The notes beneath the pieces are model-generated. The model worked only from the letters and a program-made list of their open reading frames with translations, was not told where the DNA came from and did no database searches. The position numbers and the translations under genes are program-made. Shown one piece after another: positions 2,748 to 32,630 of a DNA stretch of 36,836 nucleotides. The first letter of the stretch is position 1. Each line of letters begins with the position of its first letter. This DNA comes from an uncultured Paracoccaceae bacterium (lineage in GTDB: Bacteria > Pseudomonadota > Alphaproteobacteria > Rhodobacterales > Rhodobacteraceae). The stretch lies in the NCBI GenBank assembly GCA_947489705.1, contig CANLEQ010000029.1:1-36836 (forward strand), given 5' to 3'.

Positions 2748-3220
2748 AGATCGAACTCAAGGCGATCCAGTACGCCGCCTTCTCATCCGAGGAGACCAAC
2801 TGCTACACCGCCAATCTCTATATCGAAGGCCGCAAGATCGGCACGGTCGGCAATGACGGGCATGGCGGTCCGGATCACATTCACGGCGATCATGCGGCCT
2901 TCGCGGCGGCCGACGAATGGTGCAAGGCCAACCTGCCCAAGTGGACCGGCCATGACGGTACGCCGCGCGACACCGATCTGGAGTTTCATTGCGGCCAACT
3001 CGTCGATGACTGGCTCGTGGCCCGCGACCTGAAGACCGCGCTGCGGACCAAGGTGGTGATGCGCGATCCCGCAGATGGGTGCCTTTATGAGGTGAAGCAC
3101 CGCAAACAGGTGGAGGCCACGATCGCGGGCGTTCTCAGGCAGCATCCCGGTGCTGTGATCCTGAACACCCTGCCCTTCGACGAGGCGCTGACGCTCTATC
3201 GCGCAGCAACCTCGCCATGA
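2744..3220 (+). CDS. Hypothetical protein, last gene of overlapping cluster
   Basis: This 158-residue protein starts MKIELKAIQYAAFSSEETNC at an ATGA overlap. Its first part (YTANLYIEGRKIGTVGNDGHGG, then HIHGDHAAFAAADEWCKANLP) has several histidines and glycines. The second part contains HCGQLVDDWLVARDLKTAL, and the C-terminus predicts alternating strand and helix. The His/Cys content might bind a metal, but no classical motif is complete. It looks like an uncharacterised protein type found on rhodobacterial and rhizobial plasmids. It ends a tightly packed cluster that probably makes one polycistronic mRNA. Confidence 0.8.
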   Translation: MKIELKAIQYAAFSSEETNCYTANLYIEGRKIGTVGNDGHGGPDHIHGDHAAFAAADEWCKANLPKWTGHDGTPRDTDLEFHCGQLVDDWLVARDLKTALRTKVVMRDPADGCLYEVKHRKQVEATIAGVLRQHPGAVILNTLPFDEALTLYRAATSP

Positions 3221-3302
3221 TGGCGGACGCGGTTCCGCTGCGAGAAATCGTCGGTATGTCGTGAAAATCGGCCCGGTACATCGGAAACGGATCGACAGGA
3301 GA

Positions 3303-3347
3303 ACCCCATAGGGTGTAAACAAACCAAGAACACACCAGATATGGGGT
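3303..3347 (+). promoter_or_regulatory. Dyad that could hide the Shine-Dalgarno of the next gene
   Basis: Nested perfect arms are visible: ACCCCAT (3303-3309) with ATGGGGT (3341-3347), and inside them GGTGT (3312-3316) with ACACC (3332-3336). The 3' arm contains the GGGGT that lies 7 nt before ATG 3354. Folding of the mRNA could therefore block ribosome entry. It might instead be a DNA operator. Confidence 0.45.
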
Positions 3348-3353
3348 CAGGTC

Positions 3354-3899
3354 ATGCTACAGATGATCGACAAGGATACCGGCCTGACGATGAGCATGGC
3401 CGTGCAGGCGAAACCACAGAACCCCCGCACGGCCGAGAACAACATCTTCCAGTTCGTAACATGGACCAAGGGTCTCGGCGATACACATCGCTGGCGCAGC
3501 CACGACGATTTCCTGTCCGCCATCAAGACGCAGGATCACCTGATCTACCGGCTCCGGAAAGGAGAGCGATCGCGCCGCGCGACGCTCGCCATTCTCCATG
3601 ACAACGAAGCCCCCACGATCGGCTACGCCTTCGCCCACTACGACCTTCTGCGTCTGGAGTTCGACGTGCCGGGCGACATCGGCCCGGAGGAGGTCAAGCG
3701 CGCCCTCGACCTGCTGATGGTGGAGCTGCTGACCTACGAAGAGTACATCGCCGGCCAGGTCTACAGCTTCGCAATCACCGACAAGGCCGGGACCGTGCTG
3801 GATGCTCAGGACAACATCTATGGCGAGGATTACGCCGAGCATCTCGCTCGCGAAGCCTTCGACATTCACCGCCTCGGTATCGGGGCCCACGGCTCCTGA
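3354..3899 (+). CDS. Hypothetical protein
   Basis: The 181-residue protein starts MLQMIDKDTGLTMSMAVQAK. A second in-frame ATG at 3363 is possible, but the GGGGTCAGG site fits 3354. The middle (NIFQFVTWTKGLGDTHRWRS, then LIYRLRKGERSRRATLAIL) is followed by an acidic helical part (GPEEVKRALDLLMVELLTYEEYI) and an alpha/beta end. There is no signal peptide or transmembrane segment and I recognise no domain. The dyad over its ribosome-binding region is described separately. The next gene begins 37 nt downstream on the same strand. Confidence 0.75.
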   Translation: MLQMIDKDTGLTMSMAVQAKPQNPRTAENNIFQFVTWTKGLGDTHRWRSHDDFLSAIKTQDHLIYRLRKGERSRRATLAILHDNEAPTIGYAFAHYDLLRLEFDVPGDIGPEEVKRALDLLMVELLTYEEYIAGQVYSFAITDKAGTVLDAQDNIYGEDYAEHLAREAFDIHRLGIGAHGS

Positions 3900-4893: not shown

Positions 4894-5078
4894 GTGTGCG
4901 CCAGACAACAAGAGTCAAAACAAACGGAATTAGGGAATTGGGCAAGGAAACAATTCACCGAAAATGCGAATAAACCATTGGATCGGGGCGCATTTAATTA
5001 GTAAAAAGGATGCAGGGAAAGCGAATGTCGCTCCCCTCCAAAGCCGGAAATGTCCGGCGCACAATTAGGACTAAGCCA

Positions 5079-5972
5079 ATGCTCACCACCTATGATGAAA
5101 TCGAATTGTTTGGCCTTACCGAAAACGGCAGCGACGACTTGCCCATTCCCCACGACGAGGAATTGCAAGGCCGCGCCGTGGGCGAAGCGTTCGAGGCGCT
5201 TTTCGGCGTCCTTCAGGGATCGGGCCTCGCGTCCGAGGTGGAACCCCTCGCCCATGCCTTCGCGACCATGTTCCAGCGCCGCGCCGTGTCGCTGGACCAA
5301 GCCGCAGACCGTCAGAAGGTGAAGGCCCGCGCCCTGATCGGATCGCAGGACGGTAGCGAGATCGCGGAGCAGGAGCTTGACCAGACCACGCGCCTTTTCA
5401 CTATCCTGCAAGAGAAAGCCGACGCCCTCAAAGTCATGGCCGAGGAAGCGGCGCAGCTTTACGAAAGCGAGACGGGCGAGCATTACACCCCTGTCACCGG
5501 CGACCGCACCACGCGCCGCGCGATGGAAACCGGCGCGGTATTCGAGGCGAAAACGCTGCTGGACGCCGCCGACCGCGAGGAAGCCGAGCGCAACAAGGTC
5601 GCGGGAACCAAGATCGCCGTCGCTGGCGATGCCGATTGGATCGAGAGTGCGCCCATCTGGAAGCGGCTGGACGCCGCCCTTGCCAGATGCCCGGACATGG
5701 TGCTTTGCCACAAGGCTTCGCGTGGAGCCGAGCGCATCGCCGCCGCATGGGCAAAATCGCGCAAGGTGCCGCAGATCCTTTTCCGCCCGAACTGGGCCGC
5801 GCACAATCGGGCCGCCCCGTTCCGCGCGAACGATGAAATGCTGACCGCCCGGATCGCTGGCGTGATCCTCTTCGGAGGCGGCGGCATCGGCCTCAACCTT
5901 GCCGAGAAGGCCGAGGGCAAAAAACTCCACGTCGCCCGCGTTCCCAAGCCGGAGGCACAGCGGGACGCCTGA
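5079..5972 (+). CDS. DUF2493 (SLOG-like) domain protein
   Basis: The 297-residue protein starts MLTTYDEIELFGLTENGSDD, with AGGA 8 nt upstream. In-frame ATGs at 5010 and 5025 are possible but add an atypical basic lead. The first 150 residues are helical and acidic. The DUF2493 Rossmann-like domain starts near residue 175 (KIAVAGDADWIESAPIWKRL), with DMVLCHKASRGAERIAAAWA and a later glycine stretch (VILFGGGGIGLNLAEKA). SLOG-superfamily members bind nucleotides or nucleotide derivatives, but no role is established for this plasmid branch. The gene stands alone between an AT-rich control region and a clear terminator, and is typical of alphaproteobacterial conjugative elements. Confidence 0.88.
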   Translation: MLTTYDEIELFGLTENGSDDLPIPHDEELQGRAVGEAFEALFGVLQGSGLASEVEPLAHAFATMFQRRAVSLDQAADRQKVKARALIGSQDGSEIAEQELDQTTRLFTILQEKADALKVMAEEAAQLYESETGEHYTPVTGDRTTRRAMETGAVFEAKTLLDAADREEAERNKVAGTKIAVAGDADWIESAPIWKRLDAALARCPDMVLCHKASRGAERIAAAWAKSRKVPQILFRPNWAAHNRAAPFRANDEMLTARIAGVILFGGGGIGLNLAEKAEGKKLHVARVPKPEAQRDA

Positions 5973-11508: not shown

Positions 11509-12144
11509 TCAGGTCGTGCGAAGATAATGTTCGAGAGCGGCGTCGAGAATGCGGCTTCCGATCTGCGACTTGCCCAGCAGCCCCTTGGGATCGAGATGTG
11601 CAACCGCCTTGGCGTAGAGATCGTCAGGCATGGACCGCGACGTCTCGACACGTCCTCCCCGCCTCTTTGATGGCGCCATCACGGCTGGCAGGTCTGTGGT
11701 CTCGAGTGCTGCGCTATAGGCTGTCATGCCCATCGAGAGACACAGGCCGAGCGCCTTCTGTCGCCCGTAGATCGTGACGAGTTCATCATAAATGGCGTGT
11801 TCTCCAGCAGCGGGAGTACGGACATACCCTCGAAATCGTACATTCTGGCCGGTGGCGGCTTTTTGTTTTGCAGTTCGCTCTGGCGTGGTCGGTTGCTTGA
11901 GTTGTCGTGCACCGGCAGGAGTCTGTCGTGGCGCGGCCTTGATGGGCATCTCGACACTCGTGGGCGCCTCGTCCGTCCTGGAAATCCTTCGCTCCTCCTT
12001 GGCGGCGGCGTCTGAGTGCGAGCTCGGTCCGCGTGTATCTGCCTCCTCTAGAGATTGCCGCGTCGGCATCGTGCCCGATGACGGCGGGTGTCTGTGTCGG
12101 ATCGAGGCATAATTCATGCCCGGCGGGATTTTCTTGAGGGCCAT
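11509..12144 (-). CDS. virC2: VirC2-like conjugation protein
   Basis: The 211-residue protein starts at ATG 12144, which overlaps the virC1 stop (TGATG). The N-terminal 100 residues are polar and disordered (Pro, Ala, Arg). The C-terminal 110 residues resemble the VirC2 ribbon-helix-helix domain: DELVTIYGRQKALGLCLSMG, later SRSMPDDLYAKAVAHLDPKG and SRILDAALEHYL. In Agrobacterium VirC2 works with VirC1 to bind the overdrive sequence beside the border and to raise T-strand production. Identification rests on this pattern and on the position next to virC1 and opposite virD1-virD2. Homology is inferred by eye, so confidence is moderate. Confidence 0.75.
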   Translation of the reverse strand: MALKKIPPGMNYASIRHRHPPSSGTMPTRQSLEEADTRGPSSHSDAAAKEERRISRTDEAPTSVEMPIKAAPRQTPAGARQLKQPTTPERTAKQKAATGQNVRFRGYVRTPAAGEHAIYDELVTIYGRQKALGLCLSMGMTAYSAALETTDLPAVMAPSKRRGGRVETSRSMPDDLYAKAVAHLDPKGLLGKSQIGSRILDAALEHYLRTT

Positions 12145-12866
12145 CACGCAAGCTCCGGCACTGTCAGTGCCGCTAGGATCTCGTCCACCATCGGCTCGGC
12201 CTGGGCCAACGACATGCGCGTTTGCGGTGCCCTGAGCCGCATTACGGAGTCGGGATGGGTTCGGAGATAGTCCGCGTAGAGATTGAGCGGGCCGTTCCCG
12301 GCCATACTCTTGTAATACTTGCTGAAGGGTATCCGGACGGCGAAGGCCGGCAGATCCTTCATGATCTCCATGGCTGCCCGTTCAGCGATCGTGAACTTCG
12401 CATCGTCGGTCTGCACGCGGTTCAGCAGGAAGCCGGTGGGAATATCGACCTCCGCGGCCTTCTGCAGGTTCATGACATACTCCATCGTCTCCAGCGCGAT
12501 ATCCAGCTCGCCTGTGCCGAGATCGGTCGGGATCACGATCAGATCGGAATTCAGCACGGCGAGCTGGTTCAGGTCGGATCCGCCGCCGTGCGTGTCGATA
12601 AGAAGATATTCCGGCTGGTCCCGTTCGGCTTGTTCGAACGCCGCTTCCAGGCGCTCTTCGTCCGAGCCATCGTAGACCTTGATATTGTCCTCGTCCCAGG
12701 CGCCGATGGCGCGTCCGTAGTTTCGCCATTTGACGACTGACCTGTTCTCATCGGCATCGATGAGACCGAGGCGGATGCCCCGCTTGTTCAGAACCGACGC
12801 CATCAGGCACAGCGAGGTGGTTTTCCCCGCACCGCCTTTGAACGCCAGGAAGGTGATTATCCGCAC
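12144..12866 (-). CDS. virC1: VirC1-like ParA-family ATPase
   Basis: From GTG 12866 (AAGGA 7 nt upstream) the product is 240 residues, close to the roughly 230 of VirC1. It begins MRIITFLAF and has a deviant Walker A, KGGAGKTT (residues 10-17), then LGLIDADENRSVVKW (Walker A' region) and YLLIDTHGGGSD (Walker B). VirC1 is a ParA/MinD-type ATPase that recruits relaxosome complexes to the VirD4 coupling protein at the cell pole. No ParB partner is adjacent, which argues for transfer rather than partition. The frame stays open for 86 further codons upstream, to ATG 13124, through a Cys-Gly repeat array, so an N-terminally extended form cannot be excluded. It is translationally coupled to virC2. 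Confidence 0.85.
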   Translation of the reverse strand: MRIITFLAFKGGAGKTTSLCLMASVLNKRGIRLGLIDADENRSVVKWRNYGRAIGAWDEDNIKVYDGSDEERLEAAFEQAERDQPEYLLIDTHGGGSDLNQLAVLNSDLIVIPTDLGTGELDIALETMEYVMNLQKAAEVDIPTGFLLNRVQTDDAKFTIAERAAMEIMKDLPAFAVRIPFSKYYKSMAGNGPLNLYADYLRTHPDSVMRLRAPQTRMSLAQAEPMVDEILAALTVPELA

Positions 12867-12902
12867 AAGAGGTCCTTTCTGCTTTTGCTTTGCCCCGGCC
12901 GC

Positions 12903-13118
12903 TTCGCCGCACGTGCCGCAACGAACGCGGGCACCGCGATTGCCACATCTGCCGCACTCACCGTCAGTGCCGCACATGCCGCAGATACCGCACTTGACGC
13001 AGGACCCACATGTGCCGCAGCTGCCGCATTCGCCGCATTCGCCGCATTCGCCGCACTGAGCGCACAAGCCGCATGATCCGTACCTGCCGCAGATACCGTT
13101 CTTGCCGCATCTGCCGCA
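12903..13118. repeat. 24-unit degenerate 9-bp tandem array (TGCGGCNNN on minus strand)
   Basis: Twenty-four consecutive 9-bp units keep perfect period with no slippage over 216 bp. Read on the minus strand, most units are TGCGGC plus three variable bases; the closest run is three identical TGCGGCGAA units near 13036-13062. It lies between virC1 and virD1, 205 bp from the nick-site candidate. It could be a protein-binding array used by VirC1/VirC2 or another relaxosome or partition protein. On the minus strand it also reads as a Cys-Gly-X repeat in frame with virC1. Confidence 0.85.
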
Positions 13119-13322
13119 GAGCATCGTGCCGCACGCTGCCTCCTCAAGGGCATTCGTAGCCCGACGAGACCCGCCGACAGGCGGCTCCTCTCATGGCTTC
13201 TCCAGCTGCGTTTCATGCGGTCCAATCGGCAGGGGTTGCTTCTTCGAAGACACCCGGACTCTTGACCGGCTGCGACGGAAGGTAAAGGATGAAACTACAC
13301 GATTGGGACGAAATTGTACGAT

Positions 13323-13354
13323 TGGCAGGATATATCCAAAAGTAGAACTTTTGG
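13323..13354 (-). other. oriT: Origin of transfer (oriT) candidate with T-DNA-border-like nic
   Basis: The plus strand reads TGGCAGGATATAT (13323-13335), identical to the core of Agrobacterium T-DNA borders. After a 6-nt spacer comes GTAGAAC, where borders have GTAAAC. Directly adjoining is a perfect inverted repeat, CCAAAAGT-AGA-ACTTTTGG (13336-13354). By analogy, VirD2 would cut the minus strand in ATATATCCTG^CCA, between 13326 and 13325, with the inverted repeat 5' of the nick as in MOBP origins. A direct repeat ACGATTGG (13299-13306, 13318-13325) lies on the other side. The relaxase accessory gene starts 36 bp downstream. Confidence 0.8.
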
Positions 13355-13390
13355 AAACTAGACGGCCAGAGCAGGGATCGACGAGCGATC

Positions 13391-13867
13391 ATGGCGAAGA
13401 GCGACGGCAAGGCGCCCGGGTGGGAGAGCCGCGAGATGAAGGGCGGCGATTGGGTCGAGCGCGTCGAGCCTGGACGGAAGGCGCGCGCCGAGAAGACCGT
13501 CTCGGTGAAGATGACGGAGGCCGAGCTGGCCGAGTTCGACGCGCAGATCGCCACCCTGGGGATCAGGCGGAACCGTGCCCTTCGGATCGCCGCGCGCCGG
13601 ATCGGGGGCTTCGTGGAGGCGGATCAGGCCCAGGTCGAGGCGCTGCGCGACATCACGCGACAGCTCGTCGGTGTCGCGCGCAACATCAACCAGATCGCGA
13701 AGGCGGCGAACCGGACCCGTGATCCGGAGTACCGGGCCTTCATGGAAGAGCGCGCAGCACTCGGCCGCGAACTTGCGCGGGTGCAGGGACAGACCCAGGC
13801 GATCCTCGATCTCGCGGCGCGGCGCGAGGACGGGTTGGCGCGGCTCGCCCGGGCGGCGGGCGCGTGA
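13391..13867 (+). CDS. virD1: VirD1-like relaxase accessory protein
   Basis: This 158-residue protein starts MAKSDGKAPGWESREMKGGD. A ribbon-helix-helix-like stretch (EKTVSVKMTEAELAEFDAQI) is followed by GIRRNRALRIAARRIGGFVE, which matches the VirD1 pattern of SRN-hydrophobic-R-A-RR-GGF. The C-terminal half is a long charged helix (RELARVQGQTQAILDLAARR). VirD1 and its MobC relatives bind near nic and help the relaxase to open double-stranded DNA. It overlaps the relaxase gene by 4 nt (GTGA) and follows the oriT candidate, which supports the assignment. VirD1 proteins are usually near 150 residues. Confidence 0.85.
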   Translation: MAKSDGKAPGWESREMKGGDWVERVEPGRKARAEKTVSVKMTEAELAEFDAQIATLGIRRNRALRIAARRIGGFVEADQAQVEALRDITRQLVGVARNINQIAKAANRTRDPEYRAFMEERAALGRELARVQGQTQAILDLAARREDGLARLARAAGA

Positions 13868-15639
13868 GCAATCCGGTCGAGCGGTATCTGGAGCGCGCCA
13901 GGGCGGCAGCACCGCATGTCTCCGCGCTCGATGCGGTGATGGGCGAGGACTGGGCGATCGTCGACGTGGGCCGTGCCAGGCGGGGACAGGATCCGTGGCC
14001 GGGATTGCGGGCGGCGCATCGTGCCGATGTGGCACGCGGATTCTCCGGCGGCATGCTGCCGGGAAGAAAGCCGCAGGCGGTCGTGAAGATGATCCGCAAG
14101 GGAGGCGCGTCCGACGCCCGCGGTCTCAAGGCACAGATGGCATACCTGTCGCGGGACGGCGCGCAGCCTTTGCAGCGGTCGGAGGCCATGATGGGGATCG
14201 AGGTCGATGCCGAGCAGGCGGCGCTTCTGGCGAAGGACTGGCGGATGCCGCCGGAGGGTTCCGGCCGGGCCGACCGCACGTCGCACTTCATCGTCAGCTT
14301 TCCGCAGGACGCGCAACACGAACCGGCCGAGCGCGCGGGCCGCGCCTGGGCGGAGGAGATGTTCGGCTCCGGCCAGTATGGCGGCGACAGCTACGATTAC
14401 TACACCGCGTTCCATACCGACCGGGCGCATCCGCACATGCATGTCGTCGTCTACCGACGGGGGCTCGAGAACGGCGCGTGGCTCAAGGTCTCGCGGCGCA
14501 GCGACGTGAACTACGACCGGATGCGCGCAATCCTCGTCGAGGTCTCGGCACGCGAGGGGATCGAGCTGGAAGCGACGACGCGGCTTGCGCGCGGGGTGCA
14601 TGACAGGCCGGTGCCGGATGCGGAATACCGGCGAGCGGCGGCAGAGGGCCGGGAGGCCGAGGCGCCCGATCATACCCGCGAGACGGCGATCCGCGCGGCG
14701 GCGTCGCTCATCCATTTTGCCCGCCAGTTCGCGGCGGATGCCCGGGCGATCGCGCGCGATCTGCCGGAGCAGGCACAGATCCTGGACGCGATCTCCGAAC
14801 AATTGGCGGCGGGAAGGGCAATCACCGCGCGGGATTACGGCGACCTCACACCGGAAGGAGAGAAGCAGATGGCCGACAGGCTGGAAGACGTGACGACGGA
14901 GGTGCGCGGCAAGTTCGAGCGTCTCGACAATGATGTCGTGGACGTGGAGGACAATGCGACACGAATGCGGTTCCTGCGGCAGATCGCGGAGCTGAAGGCT
15001 AATACCGTGCCCTACATGCGCGATCCCGGTGCGCTTCGAGAGTTCGCCGAGCGCGACGAGAGCGGTCGCTTCGAGGCCATCGTTCCTTCGGACCCGGTGT
15101 CGCGCGAGGTCAAGTCGTCGGCCGATGAGGTCGCGCGGGACATCGCGGCCGGCTACGGGGTGGACCCCGATGCGACCCTCGAGCGGTATTCCGGCGCGAT
15201 CCCGTCGAAGGGGCTTGCCCGCCTCTTTGCCGAGGCAGAGGAACGCGAACGGTATGACACCCGGCAGCGAACGGGCGAGGGCCCCGAAAGCGTCGAAAAG
15301 CGAGAGGCCGAGCTGAGGCGGATGCGGACCGAATTGCGGAACGTCTACCGGGAAGGCCGCGAGATCGTGCAGGAGCAGTACACCCGGATGGCCGAATTCC
15401 GGAAAGAGCCCGGTTACAGTGATCGCGACGACGAGCAACCCGCGCGGAACGCTCTCGAGGTCGATGCGCAAACCAGGGCCGACGACCGCGACCGGTTCAT
15501 GGCCGCCAGGGACGGCTCAGCGGAGATACTCGAACAGCAGGTCCAGATCGACAAGCCGTCGCGCAACATCAGGATGACGCCCGAGCAGGAGCGCATCAGG
15601 CAGGAGCTCGAGCGCGACACCGACGGATACGACCGCTGA
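13864..15639 (+). CDS. virD2: VirD2-like relaxase (MOBP)
   Basis: The 591-residue protein uses GTG 13864, overlapping virD1. The relaxase domain spans about residues 70-265. It holds the likely catalytic tyrosine Y94 in MAYLSRDG, HFIVSFPQ near 141, AEEMFGSGQYGG near 163, the metal-binding HPHMH (189-193) and WLKVSRRSDVNYDRM, all in the order seen in VirD2. After this comes a long acidic, helical C-terminal region, larger than in Agrobacterium VirD2 (about 430-450 residues), with an Arg/Glu-rich end. Relaxases nick oriT, stay covalently bound to the 5' end and pilot the strand through the channel. The stop is 1 bp from the convergent virD4 stop. I see no nuclear-localisation-like cluster of the Agrobacterium kind. 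Confidence 0.93.
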   Translation: MSNPVERYLERARAAAPHVSALDAVMGEDWAIVDVGRARRGQDPWPGLRAAHRADVARGFSGGMLPGRKPQAVVKMIRKGGASDARGLKAQMAYLSRDGAQPLQRSEAMMGIEVDAEQAALLAKDWRMPPEGSGRADRTSHFIVSFPQDAQHEPAERAGRAWAEEMFGSGQYGGDSYDYYTAFHTDRAHPHMHVVVYRRGLENGAWLKVSRRSDVNYDRMRAILVEVSAREGIELEATTRLARGVHDRPVPDAEYRRAAAEGREAEAPDHTRETAIRAAASLIHFARQFAADARAIARDLPEQAQILDAISEQLAAGRAITARDYGDLTPEGEKQMADRLEDVTTEVRGKFERLDNDVVDVEDNATRMRFLRQIAELKANTVPYMRDPGALREFAERDESGRFEAIVPSDPVSREVKSSADEVARDIAAGYGVDPDATLERYSGAIPSKGLARLFAEAEERERYDTRQRTGEGPESVEKREAELRRMRTELRNVYREGREIVQEQYTRMAEFRKEPGYSDRDDEQPARNALEVDAQTRADDRDRFMAARDGSAEILEQQVQIDKPSRNIRMTPEQERIRQELERDTDGYDR

Positions 15640-15640
15640 G

Positions 15641-17857
15641 TCAGGGGGCGTGGCCTGCAAGGGCAGAGGCATCCGCGCGTGCCTTTTCAAGACGCGCCAG
15701 GGTGTCGGCTGCCCTGCTCCCGGAGGACGGCTTCGGACCGTCATGCGGGACGTCTTCCGAGGCGACAGGTTGCTTCCTCTCGCGCTTCGCCTTGCTGTTC
15801 GAAGTATCGGCAATCTGAGACGGGCTTACGCCATCTTCCACCCCTGCAAGTTTGCGGCGTGCTTCTTTCACCCGCGTGCTCAGAGCATCGACATGGATGC
15901 TCGCCTGTCGGAGACCTTTGATCCGTCGCTCTCGATCAGCTTCCGCGACATCGACAGAAGGCGCTCCCGGCTCCTCTGACGCAGGTGACGCAGGTGACGC
16001 AGGTGACGCAAATGCCGCCTTCTCTGGCTGAATGCCAACGTCTTCGACCCGTGGGTCTTGATATGCGGGCATATCACCTGCCTCTCTGGCGTCTTCGATC
16101 GCGGCCGCCGCCGACCCATCGGTGAGTGGACCGTCGCTGGGCCGCGGGTCAGTGTCGCCCGGGTCGATGGAAGGGTTCGAAGGATCGTACGGGTCGACAT
16201 TTGGCGGTTCGGGATAATCTCCCTTTTGGGACCCAAAGATTCTCTTCAGTTCGCGATCCTCAAAGAAGGTCACGCGATGCGCGATGATCGGCAGCATGTT
16301 CTGGACGAGAGCGACGACCTGATCCACGCCCAGCAGGCGAACCTGTTCCGGCCGGATCAGGCGAGCGCTTTCCATACGCTCGGAATAGGAGGTAGTCAGT
16401 TCGCCCCCTTTCCAGGATCTGGAGCGGGTTTTCCGGGTGAAATCCCCGATGGCCTTGCTGATGTAGTCCGGGGTCTCTTCGTCTGCCGGACCCATGAACA
16501 GCTGGATCCCGCAGTTCGAGATGAACGTGCCGGCGCCGTCCTTGCCGTAGAGATCACGCAGCGACGAAATAGTCTGCACGACGAGCATGACGCGCACCTG
16601 GTATTCGCGCAGCGTCGTGATGGCTGTCTTGAGGTTGTCCATCCGGCCCAGCGACACGAACTCGTCGAGAAGCATGAGGACGGGGTATTTGTCGCCCGTC
16701 TTCGGGTCTGGCAGGGTACGCTGCAGAATGGCCACGGCCTGCTGGAAGATCAGGCGCACCAATGGCGCAAGCGGTTCGATGTCGTTGGGTGGAATGACAA
16801 TGTAGATCGAGGCCGGCTGCGACCGCAGCGATCCGAGCCTGAAGTCGGTAGCCGCCGTCGCGTCCCGAACCATCGGGTCGGCCCAAAGGCCAAGCCCGCC
16901 ATCCATGAGGATCGAGAGATAGGCCGACAGATGCTTGTCATCGCGACTGGAGAACTTGTTGAAGATCGACCGTGCGTTGTCGGACCGGACCTCGACCGCC
17001 ATATTGAAGAGGTTCGTACTAGCCTTGCCCGGTTGCGATAGCGCGTCGTGGATCGCGGCAATCGTCGGTGTCCCACGCTCGATAACGAGAAGGGCCGTCG
17101 CCGCAAAGATGTCCCGAGCGCCATCGAGAAAGCCCTGGGCGCTATCTCCCTTGATCGTAATAAACGACGCTGCGAGCCGCCGCGCTTCGGTGAACTGTCG
17201 TCGGACATCCGTTGCCGCAACGTCTTCCAGCGGATTGAACCTGTGGGTCCGTCCCTCGGCGTCATAGGGCGAGAACCTGAAGACGCGATCTCCGAGCGTA
17301 TGCCGATGACGCGCCGTGTTTTCGTAGTTCGCTCCCTTGAGATCGAGACAGATGATCGACCCCGGATAGGTCAGAAGGGTAGGCGTCACGATCCCCACCC
17401 CCTTGCCGACGCCCGTAGGTGCCGTGATCAGGCTGTGCGGAATGGAGACCGACGTGAGATATGCAGCCCGGCTTTTCGGTGTTCCGAGCTTGCCGAAAAT
17501 CGGTCCGTTGATCTTCTGAATGCCAGAGAGAAGCTTTGCCCGCTTTATCTCTTCCCCGGTGGCCCACCGAGCCGATCCATGGCTCGTCAAAACCGGCTGC
17601 ATGCCGATCACCGGGACCAGCATCGTCATCGCCAGAGCGATACCCCCACCGATCATCGCCGCGGTACGAAACGGCTCGGACAGGACCCGCCACGAGACGG
17701 GAAGGAAGTTGAAGATCGTCCCGAACCCGACATTGGCGAGATCACCGCCTCTCGCCCATTCCGCATAGGCTCCGGAAGCAAGGATGCCAATTAGGCTTCC
17801 GATGAAGAGCCCGGCCAGCGCCAGAAGAAGGACATCTTTCGATCTGCTATCGGTCAT
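15641..17857 (-). CDS. virD4: VirD4-like coupling protein (T4CP)
   Basis: The 738-residue protein has N-terminal membrane segments (about 8-30 and 68-86), then GSARWAT, Walker A TAPTGVGKG (145-153) and Walker B YPVLMLLDEF (391-400). The TraG/VirD4 phrase LVVQTISSLRDLYG follows near 430. This inner-membrane hexameric ATPase recruits the relaxase-DNA complex to the secretion channel. The C-terminal 170 residues after about 560 are acidic and disordered, with an ASP triplet repeat encoded by a 9-bp DNA repeat. Such tails often bind cargo or accessory factors. It is the last gene of the virB operon, 12 bp after virB11. Confidence 0.94.
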   Translation of the reverse strand: MTDSRSKDVLLLALAGLFIGSLIGILASGAYAEWARGGDLANVGFGTIFNFLPVSWRVLSEPFRTAAMIGGGIALAMTMLVPVIGMQPVLTSHGSARWATGEEIKRAKLLSGIQKINGPIFGKLGTPKSRAAYLTSVSIPHSLITAPTGVGKGVGIVTPTLLTYPGSIICLDLKGANYENTARHRHTLGDRVFRFSPYDAEGRTHRFNPLEDVAATDVRRQFTEARRLAASFITIKGDSAQGFLDGARDIFAATALLVIERGTPTIAAIHDALSQPGKASTNLFNMAVEVRSDNARSIFNKFSSRDDKHLSAYLSILMDGGLGLWADPMVRDATAATDFRLGSLRSQPASIYIVIPPNDIEPLAPLVRLIFQQAVAILQRTLPDPKTGDKYPVLMLLDEFVSLGRMDNLKTAITTLREYQVRVMLVVQTISSLRDLYGKDGAGTFISNCGIQLFMGPADEETPDYISKAIGDFTRKTRSRSWKGGELTTSYSERMESARLIRPEQVRLLGVDQVVALVQNMLPIIAHRVTFFEDRELKRIFGSQKGDYPEPPNVDPYDPSNPSIDPGDTDPRPSDGPLTDGSAAAAIEDAREAGDMPAYQDPRVEDVGIQPEKAAFASPASPASPASEEPGAPSVDVAEADRERRIKGLRQASIHVDALSTRVKEARRKLAGVEDGVSPSQIADTSNSKAKRERKQPVASEDVPHDGPKPSSGSRAADTLARLEKARADASALAGHAP
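15977..16010 (+). repeat. Short 9-bp tandem repeat inside virD4
   Basis: TGACGCAGG occurs three times and then TGACGCA once more, head to tail. On the coding strand it encodes Ala-Ser-Pro triplets in the VirD4 tail. The period and the NGNCGCANN form resemble the plus-strand reading of the larger array upstream of virC1. Confidence 0.8.
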
Positions 17858-17869
17858 GTGTTCTTCGTT

Positions 17870-18850
17870 CTATGAAAGCGCCGGCATATAGACTTGCAGG
17901 ACGCCGCGCCGGCCTTTGTGGCGTCCTGTCTGTATCACCAGGTCGATCGTCGAACGGGCGTAGTCGAAGACGTCCTGCCGGGTCAGATCGAGACCGGCGC
18001 GCAGCACCATCATCGACAAGCGCTCCAGCGCCAGTTGGGGACTGTCGGCATGAATCGTGCTGATCGAGCCCGGATGCCCGGTGTTGATCGCCTCGAGGAA
18101 GTTGAAGGCTTCGGCCCCCCGGATTTCACCAAGGATCAACCTGTCGGGCCGCATCCGGAGCGCGCTTTCGAGCAAGTGGGCCGGGGAGCGTTCGGAATCC
18201 TTGCGCCTGTCGGCCACCAGTCCCACGGTGTTGGGATGCGGAAGGTGCAGCTCGGGCGCGTCCTCGATCGTCACCATGCGCTCACCGTGATCGGCCATGG
18301 ACATGATCGCGCGGGCGAGTGTGGTCTTGCCCGACGACGTGCCGCCCGAGATCAGCATGTTCAATTTTTCGCAGACGGCCCGGCGCATGAGGACGGGCAG
18401 GTCACCCGCTTCCGCAAGCCCTCTCAGCCCTTCGAGCTGTTGCCGTCGCCGGGCTTCGACATCGACCTCCGCGCCCATCAAAAAGCCTACTTCCTCCAGA
18501 TCGAGGATGCGCGAGACGTATTTGCGGATCGAGACCGACACGCCGTCCTCGATCGCGGGGGGCACGATGACCTGCACGCGCATGGATTGACCGAAGATGC
18601 GGATACGGCCCGACACGATAGGGTGTTTGGCCCCAAGCTGGTTCTTCGTCTCGTTCGCGAGGTGCGTGCCCAGCATCTTGAGGCGCTCGAACGGGATCGT
18701 ACCGCCCCATTTCTGCATGTGCGCCGCCCCGGCATACTCGACCCAGATGCTTTGATCAGGGTTGATGACGACCTCGTTCACACGCTCGGAGACGAGTGGC
18801 TCTCGAAGGGGCAGCAATCCCTGTTCTGCGTAACTGGCGGGGCCACTCAA
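17870..18850 (-). CDS. virB11: VirB11-like secretion ATPase
   Basis: The 326-residue protein has an N-terminal domain (VNEVVINPDQSIWVEYAG), then the NTPase core with Walker A GGTSSGKTT (169-177), an Asp box VTIEDAPELHLP, the LRMRPDRLILGEIRGAEAFN segment (Walker B) and the His-box GSISTIHADSP. VirB11 is a hexameric traffic ATPase at the inner face of the membrane that switches the machine between pilus assembly and substrate transfer. Its length fits the family. The start overlaps the virB10 stop by 4 nt. Confidence 0.95.
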   Translation of the reverse strand: MSGPASYAEQGLLPLREPLVSERVNEVVINPDQSIWVEYAGAAHMQKWGGTIPFERLKMLGTHLANETKNQLGAKHPIVSGRIRIFGQSMRVQVIVPPAIEDGVSVSIRKYVSRILDLEEVGFLMGAEVDVEARRRQQLEGLRGLAEAGDLPVLMRRAVCEKLNMLISGGTSSGKTTLARAIMSMADHGERMVTIEDAPELHLPHPNTVGLVADRRKDSERSPAHLLESALRMRPDRLILGEIRGAEAFNFLEAINTGHPGSISTIHADSPQLALERLSMMVLRAGLDLTRQDVFDYARSTIDLVIQTGRHKGRRGVLQVYMPALS

Positions 18851-23999: not shown

Positions 24000-24124
24000 A
24001 CCCTAGCCTCCCCGGTGCTGTTGAGGGGTTCCCAGTTGCACACGCATGGCGACGTGCGCTCGGTGTAGCTCGCGCAGCCACTCAGAAGGGCAGCCAGGGC
24101 AAGCGCGATGGTGATCCTGAGCAT
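23996..24124 (-). CDS. Small VirB7-like lipoprotein
   Basis: A 42-residue frame runs from ATG 24124 to TGA 23996, overlapping the virB4 stop (TGATG) and the virB5 start (ATGA). It begins MLRITIALALAALLSGCASY. The lipobox LSGC puts the lipidated cysteine at residue 17, and two further cysteines follow (PCVC). VirB7 proteins are short outer-membrane lipoproteins that stabilise VirB9, often by a disulfide. Size, lipobox and operon fit; the place between virB4 and virB5 rather than between virB6 and virB8 is unusual. An entry-exclusion lipoprotein is the alternative. Confidence 0.8.
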   Translation of the reverse strand: MLRITIALALAALLSGCASYTERTSPCVCNWEPLNSTGEARV

Positions 24125-26487
24125 CAGATGGCCTCTTCAAGCTGCGACTGGTCATAACCGTCGTCATCATCGTCAGCCGGGTCGTCGTCCACGCGGCCGG
24201 CGCCAAGCGCAGTGAGCATCGGGCCGAGGACGGACAGGTCGAGATCGACGATCGTGCTGGAGTCGAAGCCCCGCACAAGCGCCGTGCGGGCACCGGCGGC
24301 CGAGGTGCAGAGATACGCTTCCTCGCGATCGGTCAGGTTGAGCGGATCGAGTTCGCGGGGCGTGTTCTTCGAGCTGGGGAACAGGATCTGGGTCACACAG
24401 CTCTCGAAAATCGACCCGCCGGCGCGGCTTTCCGCGATGTGGCTGACCCGCTGCGTCAGCATGACGACGACGACGTTCTTCTTGCGCATCGTCAGCATCC
24501 AGTCCTTCAGTCGCGACTGGAAATATGCGTCGTCGAGCATCTTCCAAGCCTCGTCGAGGACGATGATCGTCGGCTGCCCGTTCTCGACGGTGCGCTCGAT
24601 CCGCCGGAATATGTAGGAAAGCCACGCCGTGCGAACCGCTGGGCTGTCGAATATCTCCGTCATGTCGAATGCCGTGATCCTCTTGTCGAAGGTCAGGGGA
24701 TCGGTGCCGGAGCCCGGAAACAGCCAGTGATACTTGCCGTCATCCCACTGGCCCATGCGGGTATGCAGATCCCCGTCGTCATCGACAGAAGCGAGCTGGC
24801 TGCGGAAATGTGCGAGTGTCTGGAGGAAGGGGTCCGAATTGGCGTTGGACCCTACGGCTTTCGCCAGCGCCTCGGATTGCATGGGCGTAAGCGGTGCCGC
24901 GTCCTGCGTCAGGAGGGCGCCGAGCCAGTCGGTCAACCATCCCACGCCGCGAAGATCGTTCTCGGAGCGAAACGGATTGAAGCCGGTCGGCACGCCCATC
25001 TGCACCGCCGAGTAGCTGCCTCCAAGACTGCGGATTGCACTTTCCAGACCCCGATCCTTGTCGAACGCGATGATGCGCGGCTCCACGCGCTGCGATTGCG
25101 CCAGCAGGAACGCCGTGCCGAGCGTCTTGCCCGAACCTGTCCGGCCGATAACGAGCGTATGGCCCACCGTTCTGTCGCCCGGCTCGCCGGGCAGGTGGAA
25201 ATTGAAGCGGTATGGCTCGCCGTTCTCGGTGGGAAGGATGGTGATCGGTGCCCCCCAGGGCTCCTTTCCCGGCTTGAGACCGCGCCCGGTGGTGTGCAGT
25301 GCCACGAAATCGGCAAAGCACGAGGACGAAATCATCGCGTCCCGCGACCGGAAGGTGAAGTTGCCGGGATGCTGCGCGAAGTAGGCCGCCCGTGCGCCCA
25401 GGTCTTCGCGCACGGCGACCGCAAGTGCGCGCTGTGTCTGCGTCCTGATCTCGGCCGCCAGCGCGTCGAGTTCCTGCGGCGACCGGGCGACGGCCATGAT
25501 CGAGACCTGGTGCTGCCCGAAGCTGATCCGTCCGGAGGCAAGATCGTCCGCCGCATCGGCAAGCTGGTCCTGCGCCGAGCGCGCCGCGTCGTCGGCCGCA
25601 CTCATCTGGCGAACGGTGCGCTGGACGCGGGCGAGGGCCGGGACGAGATCCATCGGCGTGAAGGAATGCGTGACGACGGTATCTCCGGGCAGGTCGAACC
25701 GATCGAGAAAGCCGGGCGAGGTCTCGGTGGGGTACTTCTTGAAGGTGAACATTGCGCCATAGCGCATGTCCTCTTCATCGAGCCCCATGACGATGAAGCT
25801 GTCTCCCCGGAAGTCCACGCGGGACTCCACCATGAGGTTGCTGATCGGCGTGAAGGCGACCCCCGGCGCAAGAGGATGGAATTTGCCGGTAACGGCCGTC
25901 CGGAGAAACCCAAGCCAGCGGCCGTCCGAAAGCGTCAGGCGCTCGGGGCGTGCGGCACCTACCGCCTGCATCAAGTCTTCGGTCACTTCATTCAGGAAGG
26001 CGATGCGATGCGACCGTTCGCTGCGAAGATCGCGGTTCGATCCGCTGATGATCTTCGCCCAGAGACCGGAAAGACGCTTGGGACGGATTACGAGCGTCAC
26101 CATCGAAACGCGGTCACGCAAGCCGCCACCGGCGATCAATCCCTGCCATTGGTGGTCGATCCGGGCGGCGAAGCTGTCCCCCTGGACAGGAGGCATCGTC
26201 GGAGATATCCCATGAGATATGCGATGCACGTAGAACGCGATGTCGGGCCGCGCCTGAGCAACCGTAGAGCCAAAGGCACGCGCCAGGTCTGCAACGAACG
26301 TCTCGTCGGCCGTATCGGCCTCGATACCGGCGACGAGGAAGGATGCCATCACATCGCCGTCGCGCAGCATGATGACGTCATCCCCGACGCCGGTGACGTA
26401 GGGAAGATATGCAGCCAGCATATGCTCGCGCGTCAGGCCGACCGGATCGACGGCCTTGCGGCCAAGTCCCTGTTTGAGCTCAAGCAC
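24124..26487 (-). CDS. virB4: VirB4-like secretion ATPase
   Basis: The 787-residue protein has an N-terminal CagE/TrbE/VirB domain (FLVAGIEADTADETFVADLA, then about residues 80-400) and a C-terminal RecA-like ATPase. Walker A is GRTGSGKT (448-455) and Walker B is IIVLDEAWKML (641-651), with MLTQRVSHIAES as the following sensor region. VirB4 is the largest, most conserved T4SS ATPase and energises pilus assembly and substrate transfer. The length is typical. It overlaps virB3 by 8 nt upstream, which supports coupled translation. Confidence 0.96.
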   Translation of the reverse strand: MLELKQGLGRKAVDPVGLTREHMLAAYLPYVTGVGDDVIMLRDGDVMASFLVAGIEADTADETFVADLARAFGSTVAQARPDIAFYVHRISHGISPTMPPVQGDSFAARIDHQWQGLIAGGGLRDRVSMVTLVIRPKRLSGLWAKIISGSNRDLRSERSHRIAFLNEVTEDLMQAVGAARPERLTLSDGRWLGFLRTAVTGKFHPLAPGVAFTPISNLMVESRVDFRGDSFIVMGLDEEDMRYGAMFTFKKYPTETSPGFLDRFDLPGDTVVTHSFTPMDLVPALARVQRTVRQMSAADDAARSAQDQLADAADDLASGRISFGQHQVSIMAVARSPQELDALAAEIRTQTQRALAVAVREDLGARAAYFAQHPGNFTFRSRDAMISSSCFADFVALHTTGRGLKPGKEPWGAPITILPTENGEPYRFNFHLPGEPGDRTVGHTLVIGRTGSGKTLGTAFLLAQSQRVEPRIIAFDKDRGLESAIRSLGGSYSAVQMGVPTGFNPFRSENDLRGVGWLTDWLGALLTQDAAPLTPMQSEALAKAVGSNANSDPFLQTLAHFRSQLASVDDDGDLHTRMGQWDDGKYHWLFPGSGTDPLTFDKRITAFDMTEIFDSPAVRTAWLSYIFRRIERTVENGQPTIIVLDEAWKMLDDAYFQSRLKDWMLTMRKKNVVVVMLTQRVSHIAESRAGGSIFESCVTQILFPSSKNTPRELDPLNLTDREEAYLCTSAAGARTALVRGFDSSTIVDLDLSVLGPMLTALGAGRVDDDPADDDDDGYDQSQLEEAI

Positions 26488-31562: not shown

Positions 31563-32630
31563 ATGATGAGCAGAGACCACGCTGGCGAAAAACGCACGCT
31601 CCACAAGGCTTTGAGGGACGCGAAGCGCACGTTGAAATTATCCACCGGTGCCTACGTCACAGCGCAGGAACTGATAGCCCGCATTCCGGCTGCGGCACCA
31701 TCGGCTGTATCGCCGGCCAACGTCACCGAATTGGCACGGCACACGGGCGTCAGCCCGAAAACAATCAACAACCACACCCGCGAACTCATCAGACTGGGCC
31801 TCGTCCGAAACGCCTGCCTTGGAGGCGGGCGCCGGCACTGCCAGTATGATCACCGGGGACGGTTGATTGCGGTCTACGGCATCGACCTTTCCCCCCTTCT
31901 CGAGCGAGCCGAGGAACTCGCAGCACGCTCTGAGCAAAAACAGGAAGCCGCGACGGAGCACCGATGCCTTCGGGCGACAGTTTCGGCGACACGCCGAGCA
32001 ATCCGGCAACTTCTCGGCACAGCGAGCGGCCGCGAGGAACTTCGCGCCTGGACGAGTCTGCCCAGACGCATCGCCCATCTTTGTCTCGATGAGCTGCAAA
32101 ACCTCGCACGCCAGACGCAAGACCTTCTCTTCGCCCTGATGTCCGGTCGGAAAGAAATTCCCCACCGGCCGGACGAAGACGGCCAGCCATACATTACACT
32201 CCATAAACACTCATATTTCTGTAATCGGACGATGCCTACTCAGAAAAATGGAAGGCAGGACGCGCTTCGACCAACCTGTGGTTTGGAACACATCAGTCTC
32301 AGGCAGGCGGTCCTGGCCGCGCCCGCGGACTGGCGAGATGACATGGCACTGCACGGGCATGAAACCTGGCACGGTTTTCTGGGGACCGCGTACCAGAGAG
32401 CCATCGCCCTGGGCATCAACCCGTCGGTCTGGTCACAAGCCCAGGCAGCGATCGGAATGCAAGGCGCGGGTATTCTGGTGATGCTGGCCGATGCAAATTC
32501 GGTCGAACGTGGCGGAATCATCCGATCGGTCGGTGGCTGGATGCGCCGCATGACGGAACGTGCCGAAGAGGGTACGGCTCATCTGCATCGAAGCGTCTAC
32601 GCGCTGCTGAACCGGGAAGGAGCAGAATAA
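31563..32630 (+). CDS. repC: RepC-like plasmid replication initiator
   Basis: The 355-residue protein starts at ATG 31563 (ATG 31566 is adjacent; AAGGAAAG precedes). The N-terminal winged-helix part reads VTELARHTGVSPKTINNHTR, then ELIRLGLVRNA and YGIDLSPLLERAEELAARSE, as in RepC. The C-terminal part has LRQAVLAAPADWRDD, INPSVWSQAQAAIGM and GGWMRRMTERAEEGTAHLHR, matching the RepC C-terminal domain. RepC binds the origin inside its own gene and starts plasmid replication. No repA or repB lies next to it; VirC1 is the only ParA homologue in view. RepC is usually about 400 residues, so this is slightly short. Confidence 0.88.
   Translation: MMSRDHAGEKRTLHKALRDAKRTLKLSTGAYVTAQELIARIPAAAPSAVSPANVTELARHTGVSPKTINNHTRELIRLGLVRNACLGGGRRHCQYDHRGRLIAVYGIDLSPLLERAEELAARSEQKQEAATEHRCLRATVSATRRAIRQLLGTASGREELRAWTSLPRRIAHLCLDELQNLARQTQDLLFALMSGRKEIPHRPDEDGQPYITLHKHSYFCNRTMPTQKNGRQDALRPTCGLEHISLRQAVLAAPADWRDDMALHGHETWHGFLGTAYQRAIALGINPSVWSQAQAAIGMQGAGILVMLADANSVERGGIIRSVGGWMRRMTERAEEGTAHLHRSVYALLNREGAE
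32188..32227. other. AT-rich segment within repC, putative oriV
   Basis: About 40 bp (CATACATTACACTCC through ATATTTCTGTAATC) are far richer in A and T than the rest of the gene. In RepC replicons the origin lies in an AT-rich stretch in the middle of repC, so this is the likely opening site. It has not been tested. Confidence 0.5.

Follow-up and report, generated by a model that had tools for sequence, protein, structure and literature searches.

The segment between the divergent virC1-virC2 (minus strand) and virD1-virD2 (plus strand) operons of a RepC plasmid, studied here in a window of 36,836 nucleotides (the whole stretch of DNA analysed), is, on sequence comparison, very probably the conjugative origin of transfer (oriT) of that plasmid. 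By comparison it appears to be of the MOBP type and to belong to a conjugative VirD2 system, with a (Y)ATCCTG(Y) nick core, an inverted repeat immediately 5' of the predicted nick on the strand to be cut, and an adjoining MOBP relaxase operon. A sequence-only reading of the window had proposed that a border-like nic serves as the plasmid's own conjugation origin, a proposal that gains support from conservation among relatives, covariation of the hairpin and alignment with T-DNA borders.

Read on the minus strand, the site is TCCAAAAGT-TCT-ACTTTTGGA-TATATCCTG^CCAATC; 13355-13335 form the hairpin, and the caret marks the predicted nick. The nick core (13323-13335), 5'-ATATATCCTG^CCA-3' on the minus strand, is the border core TGGCAGGATATAT on the plus strand, and a motif search of the window located the latter as an exact match at 13323-13335 (+), in agreement with the earlier claim of an Agrobacterium T-DNA border core. 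Both the 13-bp border core, which we take to be TGRCAGGATATAT, and the AC at -18/-17 are present. The outer part of the border, presumably GTAAAY, is absent as such, the window having GTAGAAC, one base longer. The parallel that had been drawn between core, 6-nt spacer and GTAGAAC and the border end GTAAAC holds in its layout, which recurs family-wide (34 of the 38 distinct oriTs have GT at -23/-22 and AC at -18/-17) and is seen also in the AC at -18/-17 of 23/23 TATATCCTGYH sites of five Ti/rhizobial plasmids; the suggested alignment with known T-DNA borders gave a match at fixed spacing. The short core alone is not specific, since the minimal MOBP core TATCCTGC has three copies in the window, and TGGCAGGATATAT with up to three mismatches has four matches against 3.48 expected. 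With the loose core at chance level, what carries weight is the extended match, together with hairpin, location and conservation. The fuller pattern GTN3ACN6ATATATCCTGC has one exact match in the window, where 0.03 would be expected even at two mismatches. Immediately 3' of the nick, on the transferred strand, two direct repeats (13288-13330, 75% alike, 19-nt step) are possible sites for an auxiliary protein. From the nick position in MOBP/VirD2 sites (PMC3772185), the minus strand is predicted by analogy to be cut between 13326 and 13325.

The hairpin 5' of the nick (13335-13355, minus strand) has 9-bp arms (13335-13343 and 13347-13355) and a 3-nt loop, so that the inverted repeat is perfect, as had been described, and its arms are one base pair longer than the 8 bp given then. 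The end of the repeat lies 35 nt from the virD1 ATG; the place upstream of virD1-virD2 had been recognised correctly, the distance having been put at 36 bp. The hairpin tip, GT-N3-AC (13342-13348, minus strand), brings AC to -18/-17, as in T-DNA borders. Folding of 71 nt of single-stranded DNA around the hairpin gave -8.4 kcal/mol (z -3.97), which none of 200 shuffles equalled. The oriT rows collected from relatives number 42, of which 38 are distinct and 33 were aligned (four duplicates and L041, L047, L048, L051 and L052 being excluded). ATATATCCTG^C is present in 33 and TATCCTG^C in 37 of the 38 distinct oriTs. Among the 33 aligned ones, six of the nine hairpin pairs have changed on both sides; pairing is found in 83.5% of alignment cells compared with 32-46% when partners are slid, a control that keeps the relatedness of the sequences, which shuffling does not remove. 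The outermost pair is formed in only 9/33. An outer inverted repeat bracketing the nick scores at least 7 in 17/38 relatives, against 5.8% of mismatched pairs and 0/500 permutations; it is absent from the window and is therefore left out of the claim.

The site is surrounded by genes for conjugation, recognised mostly by profile matches. On the minus strand are virC2 (11509-12147), virC1 (12144-12866), encoding a ParA-like ATPase, virD4 (15641-17857), encoding the coupling protein, virB11 (17870-18850) and virB4 (24124-26487); on the plus strand are virD1 (13391-13867), the relaxase gene virD2 (13864-15639) and the plasmid replication gene repC (31563-32630). A LuxR-type regulator was also recognised. 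The virC1/C2/D1/D2 set named in the sequence-only reading is thus borne out, VirC2 by a profile match below the cut-off, as is the position of the site opposite virC1-virC2. VirD2 and its octopine Ti counterpart are 43% identical over 196 columns, and the Tyr and His motifs of Ti VirD2 are kept: the Tyr at residue 94 aligns with Tyr29, presumably the catalytic residue of Ti VirD2, and HTDRAHPHMHVVV aligns with HVDRDHPHLHVVV. VirC1, VirD1 and VirD4 are 35%, 32% and 43% identical to their Ti counterparts, respectively. A search of the VirD2 profile against solved structures gave no match, and a PADLOC scan of two window ORFs returned nothing. The virC1 ORF as called (12144-13124) is probably too long, as the VirC1 match begins near 12866, where a GTG start is likely, and the remainder is repeat array. 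In this remainder (12867-13124) the ORF runs for 86 residues, Cys/Gly-rich and collagen-like, into the array and is probably not coding; the Cys/Gly-rich N-terminus was set aside as a protein feature, being a probable by-product of an array that is open in frame. The window virD4 lies on the strand opposite to virD2, behind virB11, a layout different from that of L004, L006-L010 and L012, where the two genes share a strand and virD4 comes after virD2. A YspA-type SLOG gene (5010-5972) is situated in the predicted leading region, and a DUF2493-annotated gene precedes the relaxase operon in outgroup plasmids L095, L097, L098 and L099; we take the two to be of one family.

Conservation was followed in genome contigs and in plasmid records. 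A scan of genome contigs with a VirD2 alignment yielded 40 loci, 36 with a VirD1 match. The site precedes virD1 in 34 of these 36, the other two (L055, L056) belonging to the Ti/rhizobial clade, and it stands at the equivalent place in 34/34 loci with a VirD1 match of the clade to which the window belongs. Four loci (L053, L057, L059, L060) have neither a VirD1 match nor the site. L041 and L052 carry a variant core, and in the Roseibium/Labrenzia loci L047, L048, L051 and L052 the tip is one base closer. In the plasmid collection, all 16 records with a VirD1 relative have the site, 14 by blastn with the site and those of Jiella and Haematobacter by direct reading; it was read directly in eight, the blastn match being the evidence for the other eight. 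Retention of the core in relatives of the same relaxase, which had been named as a check, hence extends to every VirD1-bearing clade locus and plasmid record, with a covarying stem. The blastn search gave 17 matches in all, including R. litoralis NC_015729, outside the VirD1 list, and two Neisseria plasmids that matched in a different part of the query. MOB-suite types 14 of the 16 VirD1-bearing records as non-mobilizable. The source genome (G000) contains three systems, each with virD1-virD2 and a site of its own, in the window, on contig C23 (L004) and on contig C67 (L088); their stems are TCCAAAAGT, TCAAATGT and AGAAGTGT, respectively, and ATATATCCTG^C is identical.

The pattern GTN3ACN6ATATATCCTGC is rare, occurring in 2/385 genomes sampled from the class and 4/394 sampled from the family, the source genome being one in each; the reversed pattern has no match in the class sample and one in the family sample. 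It marks seven distinct genome places, six of them directly before virD1-virD2 (G432, G148 and G625 among these correspond to loci L025, L044 and L050, respectively) and the seventh on a small circular contig. In viral contigs, taken as a control, none of 37 pattern matches has at least 7/8 stem pairs and three have six, compared with at least 7/8 pairs at the same fixed geometry in 26/38 distinct oriTs; the four Roseibium/Labrenzia oriTs fail this geometry because their tip is shifted by a base.

Two small elements also carry the site, with imperfect hairpins. L090 (G596 contig C18), of 8.9 kb and probably circular given a terminal overlap of 120 bases, has one site with 7/8 stem pairs, together with capsid-like, Clp-type protease-like and D5-like genes and a Rep3-type initiator. 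A 12-bp outer repeat of L090 runs through the nick. L138, the P. marcusii plasmid pCP157_21 (3157 bp), has two inverted sites with 5 and 6 of 8 pairs; its predicted nicks are near 823 (+) and 889 (-), and short tandem repeats follow each core. Neither element has a VirD1 or VirD2 match, and no relaxase was found among the 10 ORFs scanned in L090 or the three annotated genes of L138, which fits use of the site in trans. The L090 site had no match in the phage records searched, and blastn for further small plasmids like L138 returned only itself and two known clade records.

Between the oriT and virC1 lies an iteron array (12905-13133) of 18 TGCCGCA units with at most one mismatch, 16 of their 17 spacings being multiples of 9. 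TGCCGCA reaches 38 per kb in the array against 2.9 elsewhere in the window, and the period-9 score is 1.78 compared with at most 1.16 in 300 random window stretches. Among 41 clade loci with an adjacent virC1 (a set that leaves out L028 and L030 and includes some near-duplicates), the DNA between virC1 and the nick shows periodicity, with z between 3.8 and 16.6 for the strongest of 28 lags, which is a multiple of 8 or 9 in 39 loci and 17 in L007 and L033. Periodicity does not exceed z 2.0 in four Ti/rhizobial gaps, which are shorter, and a period of 8 appears at z 6.7 in outgroup L014. In 2810-3450 of that plasmid, pGal_E78, an 8-bp array precedes a ParA-like gene and is accompanied by a 12-bp inverted repeat and no ATATATCCTG core.

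Most plasmids have an array unit of their own, and the units of the three systems in the source genome likewise differ. L021 and L022, for instance, have VirD2 proteins 98% alike, VirC2 proteins 24% alike and arrays that are unlike (similarity -0.01). At 30 loci without near-duplicates, array words track VirC1 modestly (r 0.20, 8/2000 permutations), VirC2 weakly (r 0.15, 51/2000) and VirD2 not at all (r 0.03, 672/2000). A stronger relation to VirC2, r 0.40 with all 33 loci, owed part of its strength to three near-duplicate pairs and was dropped, as only VirC1 stays clear at 30 loci. The oriT tracks VirD2 (r 0.59, 0/2000) and neither VirC1 nor VirC2 once VirD2 is held fixed. The sequence match of VirC2 is weak (profile below cut-off, E 0.013); its structural model, with pLDDT mostly above 90, consists of two strand-helix-helix units and has solved pTiC58 VirC2 as its sole match at E of 0.001 or less (1.7e-6). 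The best solved match of VirC1 is ParF. A ParG-type centromere has boxes at 8-bp spacing, and Ri plasmids have repeats near the right border. Of the parts of a type I partition-like centromere, the locus has a ParA-type ATPase gene (virC1), tandem iterons beside the genes and a ribbon-helix-helix partner, the last by the predicted VirC2 model only. The plasmid-specific units, the tracking of VirC1, the VirC2 model and the ParF match point to the array as a candidate binding site of VirC1/VirC2, which we consider reasonably likely, and a unit that differs between plasmids and follows VirC1, not VirD2, might fit a centromere-like site. No convincing 8-9-bp arrays were seen beside the borders of five Ti/rhizobial plasmids. 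VirC1 and overdrive (PMC4285021, PMC4949242, PMC8716806) and partition proteins at an oriT (PMC12421886) have been treated elsewhere.

Other functions for the site can be set against this evidence. The palindrome could chiefly regulate the virD operon, as an operator or attenuator to which VirD1 or some other regulator binds, with transfer starting elsewhere; it stands 35 nt before virD1, and in RA3 the auxiliary protein MobC is reported to autoregulate its operon. However, the invariant part is the MOBP nick core on the expected strand, there is no terminator-like site or sigma-70 match, and two small elements that lack virD genes carry the site as well, so that we hold this explanation to be very unlikely. 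A dual role, as oriT and operator, is possible. A relic or chance match without function is barely conceivable: loose matches of the core alone are indeed at chance level, but the site is kept in every clade locus and plasmid record with VirD1, with compensatory changes, and the relaxase motifs are kept too.

It is also most improbable that the site works like the T-DNA borders of Agrobacterium, sending a segment of DNA into eukaryotic cells, although the core is exact, relatives of VirC1, VirC2, VirD1, VirD2 and VirD4 are present, and a plasmid strand could in principle enter any cell. ACN6ATATATCCTGC occurs as a single copy in each of 7/7 clade plasmids (whole records), whereas each of 7/7 Ti/rhizobial records or genomes has 3-8 copies (pRL7 5, octopine Ti 4, p42a 3, S. 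meliloti pRRI128_4 8, Bradyrhizobium 4, and the genomes of L055 and L056 3 and 4, respectively), in one orientation within each record or contig. It is absent from 3/3 outgroup plasmids, and the reversed pattern is absent from all 17 records. Instead of the two or more same-oriented copies expected of a T-DNA, the window, which may not be the whole plasmid, has one exact site, and this adjoins the relaxase operon and has a complete hairpin. The octopine overdrive stretch has no match in the window with three mismatches allowed, and the short overdrive core is at chance level, so that no overdrive is recognisable nearby.

The virC1-virD1 gaps of the Ti/rhizobial loci L015, L016, L018 and L020 contain no core, nor do the 1018 bases before virD1 in p42a, where virC1 is not annotated, or the stretches available at L055 and L056. 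At the place of the hairpin, a run of at least five pairs is found in 1/17 distinct borders compared with 37/38 distinct oriTs (L088 included); the 17 border windows derive from 24 sites of five named plasmids, the seven sites of the L055 and L056 genomes lying outside this set. Border pairing, at 4.0 of 8, is about equal to that with a shuffled arm (3.7). Common to borders and oriTs are the AC of the tip, the core and the 6 nt between them, i.e., AC-N6-ATATATCCTG^C, while the 5' arm is mostly missing from borders, so that a border looks like half an oriT; T-DNA borders may have come from an ordinary plasmid transfer origin by shortening. The sole border of the 17 with a 5-bp hairpin at the oriT place (GATGT-TTT-ACATC) is p42a 94409-94427 (L077), perhaps a remnant, perhaps chance. 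The non-agrobacterial plasmids pRL7, S. meliloti pRRI128_4, the B. quebecense plasmid and p42a (L015, L018, L020 and L017, respectively) have 3-8 same-oriented cores away from virC-virD, and short tandem repeats follow some rhizobial border cores.

In a tree of 50 VirD2-type rows (a set that excludes the short rows L047 and L018 as well as duplicates and fragments), the six Ti/rhizobial rows (support 100/99) are sister to the oriT clade of 36 rows (support 91/95) and eight outgroup rows stand apart, under a midpoint root and with a program warning of long branches. Four of the eight outgroup plasmids (L096-L099) have, by scan, a core with two mismatches just before a mobC-like gene; L095 and L100 have, by eye, GCATTTCCTG^CC before that gene, and L014 and L094 have no core there. 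The most economical interpretation would have a nick site before virD1 as the ancestral state and a relocation of that site in the Ti/rhizobial lineage. As a serious but tentative possibility, borders would derive by truncation from an ancestral VirD2 oriT that stood between virC1 and virD1. The Ti/rhizobial lineage would have lost that oriT and dispersed its 3' half (tip, 3' arm and nick) in the form of same-oriented borders, without the 5' arm that rejoining of the circle requires. VirC1/VirC2 would have started out as a partition-type system whose centromere, specific to each plasmid, consisted of 8-9-bp iterons; overdrive would be what is left of it, and this module would be exchanged separately from that of oriT, VirD1 and VirD2. 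Transfer to E. coli is less efficient for plasmids started from a border than for those started from Mob and depends on RecA, which has been ascribed to weak re-circularisation by VirD2 (PMC5985610). If true, the reading would supply a cis-acting cause for this poor circularisation of border-started DNA in bacteria.

In the proposed mechanism, VirD2, helped by VirD1, would recognise the hairpin tip and 3' arm plus ATATATCCTG, cut the minus strand at the predicted nick and remain on the 5' end at 13325. The cut strand would leave through VirD4/VirB with the virC side first and the virD and virB genes last, a polarity deduced from the strand by analogy. VirC1 (ParA-like) and VirC2 (ribbon-helix-helix) would bind the adjoining 9-bp array and bring the relaxosome to the secretion channel, like VirC at overdrive in Agrobacterium. 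In other mobilisation systems a hairpin arm has a role in ending transfer; here, the chances being about even, the 5' arm would serve rejoining as transfer ends.

The resemblance of borders to IncP nick regions has long been known (reportedly Waters 1991). Among the matches listed from the open-access literature, which mostly leaves out subscription journals, no title or abstract opening concerned this oriT, the half-site relation of borders or the array, and this oriT variant is apparently undescribed as such. The available parts of two Roseobacter papers refer in a general way to VirD2 and, in one case, to oriT as well (PMC4886583, PMC4511512); T4SS have been reviewed (PMC12857230), and border and overdrive annotation is found in PMC11351099. 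The half-oriT relation of borders and the iteron array are the strongest new points; neither these nor the sibling systems of the source genome figured in the sequence-only reading. The analysis suggests that the T-DNA machinery has conjugative sisters, in which relaxase, auxiliary proteins, VirC and a border-like nick are all assembled around an apparently plain plasmid oriT. It makes the origin of borders from an oriT directly testable and predicts which part a border gave up. It also offers a concrete candidate DNA target for VirC1/VirC2 and, in GTN3ACN6ATATATCCTGC plus hairpin, a search pattern for oriTs in plasmids that MOB-suite calls non-mobilizable.

Compared with known systems, the window shares with Ti/Ri T-DNA borders AC-N6-ATATATCCTG^C at fixed spacing and homologous VirD1, VirD2, VirC1 and VirD4; however, borders are several (3-8), same-oriented, away from virC-virD and mostly without the 5' hairpin arm, whereas the single site of the window has the complete hairpin and lies in the virC1-virD1 gap. 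With the MOBP oriTs of RP4 and H. pylori tfs4 it shares the ATCCTG core and an inverted repeat just 5' of it, and with tfs4 also a position upstream of a virD2-like gene and a VirC1 homologue nearby, the tfs4 VirD2, with VirC1 as partner, cutting in an ATCCTG-dependent manner beside an inverted repeat upstream of virD2 (PMC3772185); it differs from both in the core extended to ATATATCCTG, the fixed tip GT-N3-AC and the attached iteron array. The VirC1-VirC2-overdrive system of Agrobacterium is similar in its ParA-like VirC1 and in the solved pTiC58 VirC2 matched by our model (PMC4285021, PMC4949242), but in the window a 9-bp tandem array takes the place of octopine overdrive. Finally, type I partition loci of the ParF/ParG kind resemble the window in the VirC1-ParF match, the ribbon-helix-helix-type model of the partner and the short tandem iterons, whereas the array of the window lies between oriT and virC1, inside a transfer locus.
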